Part shown: piece by piece, positions 4,499 through 33,486 of the stretch
How positions within the stretch are numbered: the stretch's first letter is position 1
Layout of the letters: the number at the start of each line of letters is the position of its first letter
From: Candidatus Gemmiger excrementigallinarum
GTDB lineage: Bacteria; Bacillota; Clostridia; Oscillospirales; Ruminococcaceae
Direction: 5' to 3'
Assembly: GCA_019116445.1 (NCBI GenBank)
Contig: DXBP01000006.1
Location: 1 to 64,000 of the forward strand
DNA length: 64,000 nt
Position numbers and translations under genes: made by a program
Notes under the pieces: generated by a model
What the model saw: only the letters and a program-made list of their open reading frames with translations
Database searches by the model: none
What the model was told of the DNA's origin: nothing

Positions 4499-4837
4499 TG
4501 CTTTCGCCTCCTAATAAAATTTGTGCCTTAGGCGAGCCGATAAATCACACACGTTTCCGGGCGTTCAACCTTCCCGCATGACAAAATCCGGTGAACCGTA
4601 TTTACACAGTTCTCCCGGAAAGAATCATCACAAAGTCAGCCGAACATTGGTCCGTGCCGCAGAATGCAGCGCCGTACATATCCCTTTGTTTCCGTAATTC
4701 TTTCGCCCGGTTCTAAGATCGGACATACTCCGCGGAAAAACCCGTCTGCCTATTGGCGGACGGCAACCTCCCGCATCAACGCATATCGTGGCTTGCGCAG
4801 AACGCTTGTGACATTCCGCCCAAGCCTTTCGCAGCCG
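4499..4837 (-). promoter_or_regulatory. S10 operon 5' leader
   Basis: About 340 untranslated nucleotides lie between the S10 promoter and rpsJ. On the coding strand there is a hairpin at 4588-4618 (CCGG-GA-GAAC, then GTTC-A-CCGG) followed by ATTTTG, which could act as a pause or weak terminator. A leader of this length usually carries regulation of the ribosomal operon. I could not match it to a known L4-binding or other leader class. Confidence 0.5.
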
Positions 4838-29881: not shown

Positions 29882-30580
29882 TCAGCGCTGGACCCGTTTG
29901 TCGCAGCGGATGGCCAGACGGGTGCCCACGGTCTGCAGAATCTGTACCAGAATGACTAGCAGCGCGGTGGCGAAGAGTTCCAATACACCATTAAAGCGGT
30001 AGTAGCCATAGTTGATGGCTATTTTGCCCAGACCGCCGCCGCCGATGATGCCCGCCATGGCACCGTAGCCCATAATGGTGGTGGTGGCGATGGTCACATT
30101 GGAGATCAGGCTGGGCATGCTCTCGGGAATCATAACCTTGGTGATGATCTGCAGCGGCGTGGCCCCCATACTCTGGGCAGCCTCAATGACGCCGGCATCC
30201 ACTTCCCGGATGCTGGTTTCCACCAGACGGGAAACAAAGGGGAAGGACGCAATGACCAGCGGCACGATAGAGGCCGGCGTACCGATGGAAGTGCCGACAA
30301 TCAGCCGAGACAACGGGATGACAATGATCATCAGGATCAGGAACGGTACACTGCGCAGCAGGTTGATAAAGGCGTTGAGCACACGCATGAGCCAGCGCGG
30401 CAGCGGGCGGATACCGCCCTGCTCACCGGTGACCAGGCAGACGCCCAGAGGCAGGCCGATCACCAGCGACAACAGCGTGGCAACGGCCGTGGACCAGATG
30501 GTTTCCCAGGTTTCAAAGGGGATGGTGGGCAACACCTGCAAAAAGGTAGTCCATTCTTTGCTTGCCAGAAATTCTGCCAT
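29882..30580 (-). CDS. metI: Methionine ABC transporter permease
   Basis: MetI is the membrane subunit of the MetNIQ importer for L-/D-methionine. The 232-residue protein has about five helices and the EAA loop GVIEAAQSMGATPLQIITKV that docks the ATPase; STAVATLLSLVIGLPLGVCL is typical of the N-terminal part. It overlaps metN by one base (TGATG). Third cistron of metQ-metN-metI, all minus strand. Confidence 0.94.
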   Translation of the reverse strand: MAEFLASKEWTTFLQVLPTIPFETWETIWSTAVATLLSLVIGLPLGVCLVTGEQGGIRPLPRWLMRVLNAFINLLRSVPFLILMIIVIPLSRLIVGTSIGTPASIVPLVIASFPFVSRLVETSIREVDAGVIEAAQSMGATPLQIITKVMIPESMPSLISNVTIATTTIMGYGAMAGIIGGGGLGKIAINYGYYRFNGVLELFATALLVILVQILQTVGTRLAIRCDKRVQR

Positions 30581-31578
30581 CAGCCCTTCACCTCCTCATA
30601 CGTGATTCCGGGATAGTTCTTGATATAGTCGATGGCCTTGGCGGCATTCTCGTCGTCAGGCAGAGCCAGCAGCATACTGCCCAGGGTCTGGCCGTTGACA
30701 ATACGGGTATCCGCCGCCAGAATGGACACCAACGCGCCGCACTGGATCGCCAGGCTTGCCACCAGCGGTTTATCGGTGGTTTGGGTACCGTTGAAGGCTA
30801 CGCGCACCAGTTTGTGACCGGGTAACGCCTCCGCTTTGGGGGCACCCGCCGGATAAACCAGACGCCGGGCAGCCGCCGAGGTGGGATGGCTGAAAATCGC
30901 CTGTACCTCCCCTTCCTCCACCACGGTGCCTTCATCCAGAATGGCGACCCGGTTGCAGACTTCCTCCACAACGCTCATCTGGTGGGTGATGATCACCACC
31001 GTGATGCCCAGTTCCCGGTTGATCTTCTGGATCAGCTGCAGGATAGCATGGGTGGTGTTGGGATCCAGGGCGCTGGTAGCTTCGTCGCACAGCAGAACCT
31101 TGGGATCGGTCGCCAGGGCACGGGCAATGGCGATGCGCTGCTTCTGCCCGCCGGAAAGCTGAGCCGGGTAGGCGTCCGCCTTGTCAGGCAGACCTACCAG
31201 TTCCAGCAGTTCCCGGGCGCGGGCCTCGGCTTTGTCCCGGGGGACTTTGGCCAGTTCCATCGGGAACATGATATTGCGTAGACAGGTGCGCTGCATCAGC
31301 AGATTGAACTGCTGAAAGATCATGGTAATATCCCGCCGGGCTTCCCGCAGTTCGGCGGCGCTGAGTGCTTCCATCTGGCGGCCTTCCACCACCACGTTGC
31401 CCTCGTCGGGACGTTCCAGCATATTGATGCAGCGTACCAGCGTGGACTTGCCGGCGCCGGACATACCGATGATGCCGTAAATATCCCCGTCCCGGATGGT
31501 CAGGTTGATGTCGTTGAGCGCGACCACCGTGCCGCCCTTGGTGGCAAAGCGCTTGGTCAGGTGTTGCAATTGGATCAT
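30580..31578 (-). CDS. metN: Methionine ABC transporter ATP-binding protein
   Basis: The 332-residue ATPase shows Walker A GMSGAGKSTLVRCINMLE, the ABC signature LSGGQKQRIAIARALATDPK and Walker B VLLCDEATSALDP, with the switch His in VVIITHQM. A C-terminal NIL (ACT-like) domain of about 80 residues (VRVAFNGTQTTDKPLVASLA) is present, which in homologues binds methionine and inhibits transport when methionine is abundant. It is separated from metQ by a 103-bp gap with a very stable hairpin. Confidence 0.95.
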   Translation of the reverse strand: MIQLQHLTKRFATKGGTVVALNDINLTIRDGDIYGIIGMSGAGKSTLVRCINMLERPDEGNVVVEGRQMEALSAAELREARRDITMIFQQFNLLMQRTCLRNIMFPMELAKVPRDKAEARARELLELVGLPDKADAYPAQLSGGQKQRIAIARALATDPKVLLCDEATSALDPNTTHAILQLIQKINRELGITVVIITHQMSVVEEVCNRVAILDEGTVVEEGEVQAIFSHPTSAAARRLVYPAGAPKAEALPGHKLVRVAFNGTQTTDKPLVASLAIQCGALVSILAADTRIVNGQTLGSMLLALPDDENAAKAIDYIKNYPGITYEEVKG

Positions 31579-31681: not shown

Positions 31682-32560
31682 TCAGAAAAGAGCTACCACG
31701 GCACCGTCATAGGTTTCGCTGATGTAGTCCTTGACTTCCTGACTCTGCAGCGCCTTCAGCAGGGCCTGGATGGCAGGGTCATTCTCGCGGCCTTCTTTGA
31801 CCACCAGCACGTTGGCGTAGGTCTGGGCAGCCTCAGAGTCTGCATCCTCGGTAGCCAGGGCATCGTTGCCCACCGAGAAACCGGCCTCCAGCGCGTAGTT
31901 GCCGTTCATGACCGCGTAGTCTACATCGGCCAGGGTACGGGGCAGCTGTGCCGCTTCCAGTTCTTCCACCTGGACGTTGTGGGGGTTCTCGGTGATGTCG
32001 TTGACGGTAGCCGTCAGACCGGCATCCTCCCGGATGGTGATGATGCCCTGAGAGGCCAGCAGCTGCAGGGCGCGGGCCTCATTGGTGGTATCGTTGGGCA
32101 CCGCGATGACGGCACCGTCCGGAATTTCCTCCAGGCTCTGGCTCTTGCCCGGGTAGATGCCCAGGGGCTCGTAATGGATGGTGCCCACGCTCACCAGGCT
32201 GGTGCCGTTCTCCTCATTGAAAGAATCCAGATACGGCTGATGCTGGAAATAGTTGGCGTCGACCTCGCCGCTTTCGGTCACCATGTTGGGCTGCACATAG
32301 TCGCTGAATTCCACGATGTCCAGCGTGATTCCCTGCTCGGCCAGCAGGTCTTTGGCCACATTGAGGATTTCGGCATGGGGCGTGGGAGATGCGGCCACCT
32401 TGATGGTGGTGCCGGCCAGGTCACTGCCGGTTTCGGCGGTGGAGGCGGCCTCAGAGGAAGCCGAAGCAGCGGCAGATTCGGAAACGGAAGCGGTAGAACC
32501 GCAGGCGGCCAGGCTCAGGGCCAGGGCGCCGGCCAGAGCAGCAGAAATCAACTTTTTCAT
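31682..32560 (-). CDS. metQ: Methionine-binding lipoprotein (NlpA family)
   Basis: MetQ captures methionine outside the cell and delivers it to MetNI. The 292-residue precursor starts MKKLISAALAGALALSLAAC, a lipoprotein signal with LAAC lipobox, then a serine-rich linker. The mature part has the NlpA features IKVAASPTPHAEILNVAKDL, VDANYFQHQPYLDSFNEENG and GAVIAVPNDTTNEARALQLL. AAAGGAGA precedes the ATG. It is the first structural gene of the operon, behind a long attenuator-type leader. Confidence 0.95.
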   Translation of the reverse strand: MKKLISAALAGALALSLAACGSTASVSESAAASASSEAASTAETGSDLAGTTIKVAASPTPHAEILNVAKDLLAEQGITLDIVEFSDYVQPNMVTESGEVDANYFQHQPYLDSFNEENGTSLVSVGTIHYEPLGIYPGKSQSLEEIPDGAVIAVPNDTTNEARALQLLASQGIITIREDAGLTATVNDITENPHNVQVEELEAAQLPRTLADVDYAVMNGNYALEAGFSVGNDALATEDADSEAAQTYANVLVVKEGRENDPAIQALLKALQSQEVKDYISETYDGAVVALF

Positions 32561-32630: not shown

Positions 32631-32675
32631 TCACATTCGTACACCGGGCTGTTTGTACACCGGACCACGTTCCAT
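32631..32675 (-). CDS. Second short ORF (14 aa) in the metQ leader
   Basis: A 14-codon frame (MERGPVYKQPGVRM) has an excellent AAGGAGG site and follows the attenuator terminator. Its last sense codon is Met, directly before the stop. It contains the 9-nt sequence CCGGTGTAC twice. It may be translated and act in cis, or be a chance frame behind a ribosome-site-like sequence. Evidence is limited to ribosome site and position. Confidence 0.4.
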   Translation of the reverse strand: MERGPVYKQPGVRM

Positions 32676-32704: not shown

Positions 32705-32745
32705 CAAAAGAAAAGCGGGGCGTCGAACTGCTTCGACACCCCGCT
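32705..32745 (-). terminator. Attenuator terminator of the metQNI operon
   Basis: Coding-strand stem AGCGGGGTGTCGAA / TTCGACGCCCCGCT (one G-T pair, 4-nt loop) followed by TTTTCTTTT, lying between the leader peptide and metQ. Its 5' arm is complementary to leader-peptide codons at 32790-32804, which can form a competing antiterminator. Confidence 0.85.
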
Positions 32746-32756
32746 GTGTTTCTTTC

Positions 32757-32852
32757 TTACGCGTCCAGATTTGCGCATGAGAAAGCAGGCACAGGCTGCC
32801 GAAGCAAACTGCACATGCACATCATCATGCCAAAGCGGCTGCTGCGGTTCAT
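32757..32852 (-). CDS. Met/Cys-rich leader peptide (31 aa) of the metQNI attenuator
   Basis: A 31-codon ORF with GAAAGGGG upstream begins MNRSSRFG. Codons 9-14 read Met-Met-Met-Cys-Met-Cys, followed by SLLRQPVPAFSC and a stop shortly before the terminator. Four Met among six codons, plus a further Cys later, fits a ribosome-stalling sensor of charged tRNA-Met (and perhaps tRNA-Cys). Coding nucleotides 32790-32804 (CTTCGGCAGCCTGTG), directly after the run, can pair with CACAGCGGGGTGTCGAAG of the terminator. No S-box or T-box motif is visible in this leader. Not verified experimentally. Confidence 0.75.
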   Translation of the reverse strand: MNRSSRFGMMMCMCSLLRQPVPAFSCANLDA

Positions 32853-32908
32853 AGTCGTGTACCCCTTTCTTTGGAAATCGGACAAGCCCAGCGGCTTCTC
32901 TGGCTATG

Positions 32909-32937
32909 AGTATAGCCCCCTCGAACCCGTATGTCAA
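32909..32937 (-). promoter_or_regulatory. metQNI operon promoter
   Basis: Minus-strand TTGACA (32932-32937), 17-nt spacer, TATACT (32909-32914); start near 32902, 50 nt before the leader peptide ATG. Confidence 0.88.
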
Positions 32938-33069: not shown

Positions 33070-33486
33070 ATGAAATTTTCGACCCGCGATCGCTATGCTC
33101 TGCGCCTGATGGTAGAGCTGGCCAACCACGGGGACGCTCTGGTCCCCTTGAAGGAGATCAGTGACACCCAGCAGATCAGCCTGAAATATCTGGAACAGAT
33201 CATCACACCGCTGGCCAAAGCCGGACTGGTGCTCAGTGTGCGCGGTGCCCAGGGCGGATATCGCCTGGCGCGCCCCGAAACAGAGATCACGGCCGGAGAG
33301 ATCCTGCGTGCCGTGGAGGGGGAACTGACTGCCATCCCCTGCTTGGGGGCCAACATGGAGTGTCCCCGCCGCAACCAGTGCCAGACGCTGGATTTCTGGT
33401 GCGGGCTCAATGACCTGATCAATCAATATGTGGACAGCATTACGCTGGCACAACTGCGCGTGAAAAACGAACCGGCCAACGGCTGA
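33070..33486 (+). CDS. Rrf2 family transcriptional regulator with three cysteines
   Basis: The 138-residue protein has the Rrf2 winged helix (MKFSTRDRYALRLMVELANH, then LKYLEQIITPLAKAGLVLSV and RGAQGGYRLARPETEI). Three Cys in PCLGANMECPRRNQC (about residues 95-108), spaced C-x6-C-x5-C, suggest an Fe-S cluster as in IscR; CymR-type cysteine regulators lack such a set. It is divergent from the methionine operon, so control of sulfur or Fe-S metabolism is plausible but only inferred. Confidence 0.88.
   Translation: MKFSTRDRYALRLMVELANHGDALVPLKEISDTQQISLKYLEQIITPLAKAGLVLSVRGAQGGYRLARPETEITAGEILRAVEGELTAIPCLGANMECPRRNQCQTLDFWCGLNDLINQYVDSITLAQLRVKNEPANG

Follow-up and report, generated by a model that had tools for sequence, protein, structure and literature searches.

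A probable methionine-codon transcription attenuator in front of metQNI in Gemmiger, with copies before metG and a second conserved leader reading frame

In Firmicutes, control of methionine genes is generally attributed to S-boxes, T-boxes or DNA-binding proteins. The S-box (SAM) and T-box RNAs of Firmicutes have the same kinds of target as the leader described here, L1, and work by transcription attenuation, as is proposed for L1; the sensor in L1 would instead be a translated open reading frame (ORF), without an Rfam match. The attenuators of the trp and his operons, touched on in the accessible portions of PMC2965389 and PMC1262725, share with L1 a leader ORF, a run of regulatory codons and an intrinsic terminator, and their alternative 1:2, 2:3 and 3:4 pairings are predicted for L1 as well. 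L1 differs from them in its codon, which is Met, in its targets, a methionine importer and methionyl-tRNA synthetase (MetRS), and in a conserved upstream ORF (uORF), L2, located 3' of the terminator. For bacilli, the accessible text of PMC2965389 describes histidine leader peptides upstream of hisS/hisZ; there too, as proposed for the L1 copies before metG, a Firmicute leader peptide attenuates the gene of an aminoacyl-tRNA synthetase, but the codon is His and not Met.

For methionine, the portion of PMC8079986 that is accessible predicts a leader, metL (...CMCRRMCAF), upstream of metNIQ in Streptomyces lividans, for which no typical intrinsic terminator is reported. As in L1, a short Met/Cys leader (CMCRRMC) precedes methionine importer genes; unlike L1, the metL transcript is leaderless and its Met codons are placed near the stop, and by eye no likeness was seen beyond Met/Cys. 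A first, sequence-only reading of the DNA studied here had known of no described example of such control for metNIQ, which proves too strong in view of the metL prediction in print. According to the accessible part of PMC1262725, no methionine leader was found in Actinobacteria. Among the literature matches listed, in a search of incomplete coverage that was mostly without subscription journals, none described a Met leader of the metQ or metG genes of Firmicutes. What is new in the L1 system is the proposed sensing of Met, the occurrence of the cassette at metG too and the second uORF in tandem, trp/his-type attenuation itself being known.

The window, that is, the whole stretch of 64,000 nucleotides from Candidatus Gemmiger excrementigallinarum that was analyzed, contains metQNI with the leader region in front of it (Table 1). 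The assignment of a methionine substrate to this transporter is based on family, operon and the NIL domain, the NCBIfam scores being under the curated cut-offs. All of the elements reported by the sequence-only reading (the promoter, a 31-codon ORF with a ribosome site, the MMMCMC run at codons 9–14 and the terminator) were found, on the minus strand. The extent given to the putative control region was too small, as the conserved L2 ORF 3' of the terminator had been missed.

Table 1. Features of the leader region and neighboring genes, in window coordinates.
Feature	Coordinates	Strand	Details and basis
Promoter of the metQNI operon, sigma-70-type, TTGACA-17-TATACT	32909..32937	-	TTGACA 32937-32932, TATACT 32914-32909; sequence
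Leader ORF L1, 31 codons, MNRSSRFGMMMCMCSLLRQPVPAFSCANLDA, then stop	32757..32852	-	SD-like AAAGGGG 5' of start; sequence
Regulatory run Met-Met-Met-Cys-Met-Cys, L1 codons 9-14, region 1 of the 1:2 hairpin	32811..32828	-	
Region 2, GCTTCGGCAGCCTGTGCCTGCTTTCTC; predicted partner region 1 (protector) or region 3 (antiterminator)	32779..32805	-	Near-invariant DNA
Region 3, GAAAGAAACACAGCGGGGTGTCGAAG; terminator 5' arm plus stretch extending the antiterminator	32731..32756	-	
Intrinsic terminator, hairpin 32744-32715 then T-rich tract	32706..32744	-	Sequence and covariation
Second leader ORF L2, MERGPVYKQPGVRM, then stop	32631..32675	-	SD AAGGAGG 32691-32685; CGA immediately 5' of the last Met codon
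Hairpin with UGAGGG loop directly 3' of L2	32608..32630	-	Sequence; in a subset of species
metQ, NlpA/MetQ-family lipoprotein	31682..32560	-	Pfam PF03180 E 6e-92; NCBIfam MetQ/NlpA models E ~1e-55, under their cut-offs
metN, ATPase with NIL domain	30580..31578	-	Best NCBIfam match MetN, under its cut-off
metI, permease	29882..30580	-	Best NCBIfam match MetI, under its cut-off
Divergent Rrf2-family regulator	33070..33486	+	Rrf2 E 1e-36; under IscR and CymR cut-offs

Among the 105 ORFs of 10–60 codons in the window that start with ATG and are preceded by a Shine-Dalgarno (SD) sequence, L1 was the only one with at least four Met in five codons, and 0 of 4,656 ORFs from 20 Markov shuffles reached this value. 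The fold of the 201-nt leader had a z of -3.5, and none of 200 shuffles was as good. The observation of L1 is real and not due to chance.

The conservation of L1 was surveyed in 35 genomes of the same genus (Gemmiger, by named matches). A DNA search detected similar DNA in 33 of them. When the loci were read, the ORF, whose presence upstream of metQ in relatives had been put forward as a check, was present at the metQ place in 32 genomes, with metQ as the next gene in 31; in the remaining one (L008) the contig ends first. Genome G017 had the metG copy of L1 only, and no L1 match was obtained in the DNA search for G028 and G029, which are 86–87% complete. The set of leaders used in the comparisons below comprised 38, 31 before metQ and 7 before metG, with L008 excluded by its contig end. 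The start codon was ATG in 37 of these and TTG in one, and an SD-like sequence was present in those inspected for it. The promoter hexamers and the spacer length were identical in all 38 leaders, which suits a control exerted after initiation.

Within the Met run, indels were of 3 or 6 nt and in frame in all six leaders having them. Just past the last Met, a one-base frame shift was observed in two leaders (L017/L046 and L126), the DNA of region 2 being largely kept. Furthermore, the Pro codons at aligned columns 65–67 were CCT in 31 and CCC in 2 of 33 rows, once the two frame-shifted rows and the gapped or non-Pro rows were set aside, while in six genes of the window used as a control CCT accounted for 10 of 92 Pro codons; the constraint on region 2 exceeds the coding need. 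In-frame indels, frame shifts after the run and the CCT bias thus show, as far as sequence comparison goes, that L1 is coding up to the Met run, which is constrained as codons, and that the next segment is constrained at the RNA level.

Beyond the genus, 126 genera of the family were sampled with the exact patterns of L1 and L2 (247 genomes for each pattern), and neither pattern was matched in the other 125, a search that diverged relatives would escape. In a collection of 84,980 species, the L1 pattern was found in 18 stretches, 17 of them titled Gemmiger, Subdoligranulum or Faecalibacterium. The 18th, positions 2300–2700 of an 'Acutalibacter' MAG contig (L083), carried a Gemmiger-type metG leader, like that of L038, together with a MetG N-terminus, and this contig is probably chimeric. 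No peptide similar to L1 was found in plasmids. Six ERRDG-like matches among 22 with one mismatch (L199–L201, L203, L205 and L206) were discarded by eye as chance, lying in or beside ordinary coding sequence, and the match in L042 was also attributed to chance.

The RNA structures of the leader were then compared across the 38 homologues, 37 of which are distinct. The terminator helix was paired in 98.5% of the cells of the alignment and presented 31 two-sided changes against 9.4 in shuffles, with 0 of 500 shuffles as high, which is strong covariation evidence for a conserved intrinsic terminator. The segment 32804–32790 is able to pair with 32748–32731, and an antiterminator of this type, the pairing between leader and terminator arm already noticed in the sequence-only reading, was possible in all 38 leaders, with duplex energies of -17.8 to -33.7 kcal/mol. 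With a ribosome placed at the first Met, all 38 folded with 13–27 region 2:3 pairs reaching the end of region 3. The test for covariation between antiterminator and terminator arms, which that reading had proposed as a check, came out negative. The antiterminator helix was paired in 79.5% of cells and was equalled or exceeded by 497 of 500 shuffles; in a swap test, only 17 of 38 leaders had a cognate energy better than the mean of the non-cognate pairings; and the double-centred residual was 0.09, with 11,550 of 20,000 permutations as low for the 37 distinct leaders. These co-evolution tests are low-powered because region 2 is near-invariant, and they do not support the antiterminator any further than its being possible. 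Compared with mononucleotide shuffles, the region 2 duplex had z values of -3.1 to +0.8, often unremarkable because region 3 is GC-rich.

The full leader of the window folded as the 1:2 hairpin plus the 3:4 terminator. The 1:2 protector hairpin was predicted with 13–17 pairs in the clade of the window and with just 4 pairs in 6 of the 38 leaders, and it was weak as a consensus of all of them. An RNA that carried no ribosome and ended at region 3 also folded as the antiterminator (median of 18 pairs), and the off state would therefore need the 1:2 hairpin and the terminator to win together. The trp/his-type layout originally recognized in the window is conserved across the 38 leaders, with in-frame indels in the run and a covarying terminator.

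At the metQ locus of the window, the one Gemmiger metQ locus scanned for known RNA families, no family of the whole Rfam library was found at gathering score, which agrees with the initial impression that no S-box or T-box was visible; T-box RF00230 and the SAM riboswitch families had no match there, and a lax search gave four weak matches to unrelated families, far under the cut-offs. No cis-regulatory family was detected at 19 Gemmiger metG loci, where the only match was a tRNA gene, and no T-box or other cis-regulatory family at 20 metG and 20 metQ loci of other genera. T-box matches at E <= 0.001 occurred elsewhere in all 35 genomes, and in 30 of these genomes the family cut-off was exceeded. 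The sole match of the window at gathering score was the S10-Clostridia ribosomal protein leader (RF03136) at 4703–4787.

An L1-type leader with its terminator was also found before metG, the MetRS gene, in 7 of the 35 genomes (G005, G015, G017, G022, G031, G032 and G033), examples being MQFERRDGMYMCSLLRQPAHAFPCL and MKFERRDGMRMRGRLRQPAPAFPCPQRA, each ending in a stop; L1 is thus common to the metQ importer locus and to metG. Of 31 Gemmiger metG starts that were read, 7 had L1, 7 had L2 and 17 had neither in the 330 bases read, the metG of the window's own genome (L110) being among those with neither leader in that length. The metG starts of G004, G008 and G024 could not be judged and are outside this count. 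All 38 runs contained at least two Met codons, the number being 3–6 in the 31 metQ leaders and 2–3 in the 7 metG leaders. The same cassette at importer and MetRS, with Met as the sole constant, favours tRNA-Met as the probable signal of L1.

The reading that competes best with this one is that the metQ leader senses cysteine, or Met and Cys jointly, through the Cys codons of the run, and it is unlikely without being negligible. Cys was present inside the run in all 31 metQ leaders and in 2 of the 7 metG leaders, with three more metG leaders having it right after the run, so that 5 of the 7 have it in one place or the other. A sulphur signal would also fit the Rrf2 gene (CymR/IscR-like) that lies divergently beside the leader in 29 of the 32 loci, L043 and L044 included and L017/L046 not. 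Nevertheless, Met outnumbers Cys in each metQ run, the inner Cys is replaced by Arg in L044, the second Cys is Tyr in six metQ leaders, and two metG leaders (L045 and L126) have no Cys in the run or next to it, while all seven keep their Met codons. The conservation of the Met/Cys run, likewise proposed as a check, held for Met throughout and for Cys inside the metQ runs, and broke down for Cys in most of the metG runs. As every metQ run has Cys, this residue may still play some role at the metQ leaders.

The second ORF, L2, lies between the terminator and metQ, has a good SD and elsewhere mostly follows the consensus M(K/E)..P.CKQPG(V/I/F)RM(C). It was present at 27 of the 32 metQ loci; it was not found in L015, L017, L018 and L022, and the contig of L008 ends before it. 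Additionally, L2 was located before metG in eight genomes (seven loci read and G016 by position), and its exact pattern occurred in 27 of the 35 genomes. In the copies examined before metG, the start of L2 overlapped or adjoined the end of the upstream gene. The L2 ORF of L026–L028 reached the metQ start with an ATGA overlap, which suggests translational coupling in these loci. That L2 is coding is shown by the synonymous substitutions in its Gln, Pro, Gly and Val codons.

The Arg codon of L2 was CGA in all 32 distinct copies, the collecting pattern itself having fixed CGA, and a search allowing one mismatch revealed no other Arg codon at the L2 copies of metQ or metG. The 51 matches of this search corresponded to 27 metQ copies, 8 metG copies, 13 in the RNA polymerase beta gene and 3 unread (G001:C56, G002:C167 and G016:C5). 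The 13 QPGVRM matches, located neither at metQ nor at metG but at a third place, were rejected as L2 since they belong to the RNA polymerase beta gene by sequence and, in two cases, by Pfam RNA_pol_Rpb2_6; as a codon-use control, Arg in this same peptide was encoded there by CGT, CGC or CGG, never by CGA. Otherwise CGA is almost unused: it was the codon for 1 of the 879 Arg residues in the metG genes compared (29 from Gemmiger) and for none of the 66 in six genes of the window. The Met codon next to CGA is near or at the end of the ORF. The speed of Arg codons has been addressed in a bacterial his-leader assay, the organism reportedly being Salmonella. In the accessible text of PMC4046918, CGA is among the slow Arg codons in that assay. 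We infer that CGA-ATG in L2 may be a slow, Met-sensitive site.

The gap between L2 and metQ tended to have more C than G in most copies, the excess being modest and absent at 4 of 7 metG copies, and a C-rich gap 3' of L2 would weakly fit Rho. A uORF of the TnaC type acting with Rho, as mentioned in the accessible part of PMC1262725, is a possible model for L2, which is a uORF with no intrinsic terminator and, in most copies, a C-rich gap. A role of CsrA at L2 is conceivable too. A UGAGGG motif was observed near L2 in 8 of 34 L2 loci (the window, L002, L003, L007, L011, L012, L014 and L019), and by eye the stems of the hairpins with this loop seem to vary with pairing kept.

Attenuation by L1 is the likeliest mechanism, with Met as the favoured signal. 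Probably, though with real room for doubt, L1 is a ribosome-mediated transcription attenuator of metQNI that reads the charging of elongator tRNA-Met, with the cassette also placed before metG and L2 as a further check. The stalling, the switch, its signal and the mode of action of L2 are what we infer, as follows. With ample charged tRNA-Met, the ribosome would pass the Met run, regions 1 and 2 would pair, the 3:4 terminator would form and transcription would not reach metQ. Under a shortage of charged tRNA-Met, the ribosome would stall at codons 9–13, covering region 1 and freeing region 2; free region 2 would then pair with region 3, preventing the terminator, and metQNI would be transcribed and methionine imported. 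In some species the same L1 cassette would serve before metG. L2, 3' of the terminator, would add a second check, in which Met is probably again the residue that is read: the very rare CGA in the P site would slow the next Met codon, making it sensitive to Met-tRNA. A difficulty for this model, by reasoning, is that methionine shortage would also cut fMet-tRNA and initiation on L1, favouring termination.

A broader version of this model is possible, though rather doubtful. Methionine supply would be controlled by two interchangeable uORF modules, used in tandem before metQNI and singly before metG, where L1 would be the attenuator and L2 a new kind of sensor that needs no intrinsic terminator, the poor decoding of CGA in the P site making the single Met codon after it a sharp detector of tRNA-Met charging.

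Three other explanations were considered for the leader. One is nascent-peptide arrest, in which the cofactor would be methionine, SAM or some other ligand and the cause would not be a mere lack of charged tRNA. In many leaders that do not belong to the clade of the window, the DNA encoding the N-terminal ERRDG is conserved, and the L2 peptide is strongly conserved, both of which would fit. The explanation is nonetheless improbable: the N-termini of L1 differ by clade (NRSSRFG, YRRDG, NAAYSG), and in L017 and L126 the peptide past the run is in another frame. Repeated Met codons, as in L1, are typical of hungry-codon sensing. Equally little credit can be given to the idea that regulation is really due to the divergent Rrf2 protein, with the leader setting no more than a constant level. 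The gene is conserved and has the Rrf2 score given in Table 1, but the identity of the promoter hexamers extends to the metG copies elsewhere in the genome, and a constant terminator would need no Met run. Lastly, a structured RNA or protein-binding element in which the L1 ORF is incidental would agree with the good fold of the leader and with the constraint on region 2 beyond coding, yet it is very improbable given the SD, the start codon, the open frame with in-frame indels up to the last Met and the absence from the locus of any Rfam family at gathering score. The tRNA-Met attenuator formed by L1 remains the preferred reading.

Moreover, a related design was looked for in other genera by scanning 28 non-Gemmiger metQ loci for small ORFs that follow an SD and contain a stretch of 6 codons with 3 Met or more. 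Met-rich ORFs were obtained at four of the 28, and only that of L158, from another genus of the family, was on the metQ strand. There, on the reverse strand at about 1147–1300, a Met-rich leader (MSAIFAATENKAMMMCGVSAMGMMRVFSRAKNNPL, then stop) with a promoter and a perfect terminator precedes metQ; the antiterminator was not convincing on folding.

A different element was observed before metG in other genera. In 10 of 26 readable metG starts, some genera being represented twice, a hairpin with a 7-nt UYCAUUY loop lies just 5' of the metG SD (L132, L133, L134, L135, L136, L138, L140, L141, L146 and L152); it is absent at the metG of the window's genome. The CAU of this loop sits where the anticodon of tRNA-Met would be. 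The stem covaries, with 14 two-sided changes against 4.6 and 0 of 500 shuffles as high, in 11 rows made up of these ten and the poorly fitting L139. Autoregulation of MetRS by anticodon mimicry is a possible interpretation of this hairpin.

If the proposed mechanism is true, a Met leader attenuator common to the importer and MetRS would represent the replacement of a sensor in the control of methionine genes. It would also raise a puzzle, as a cell starved of methionine should be unable to initiate translation of that very leader. In turn, L2 would be a naturally occurring example in which a rare codon is fixed beside a possibly sensed codon, and may bear on how codon context tunes ribosome stalling.
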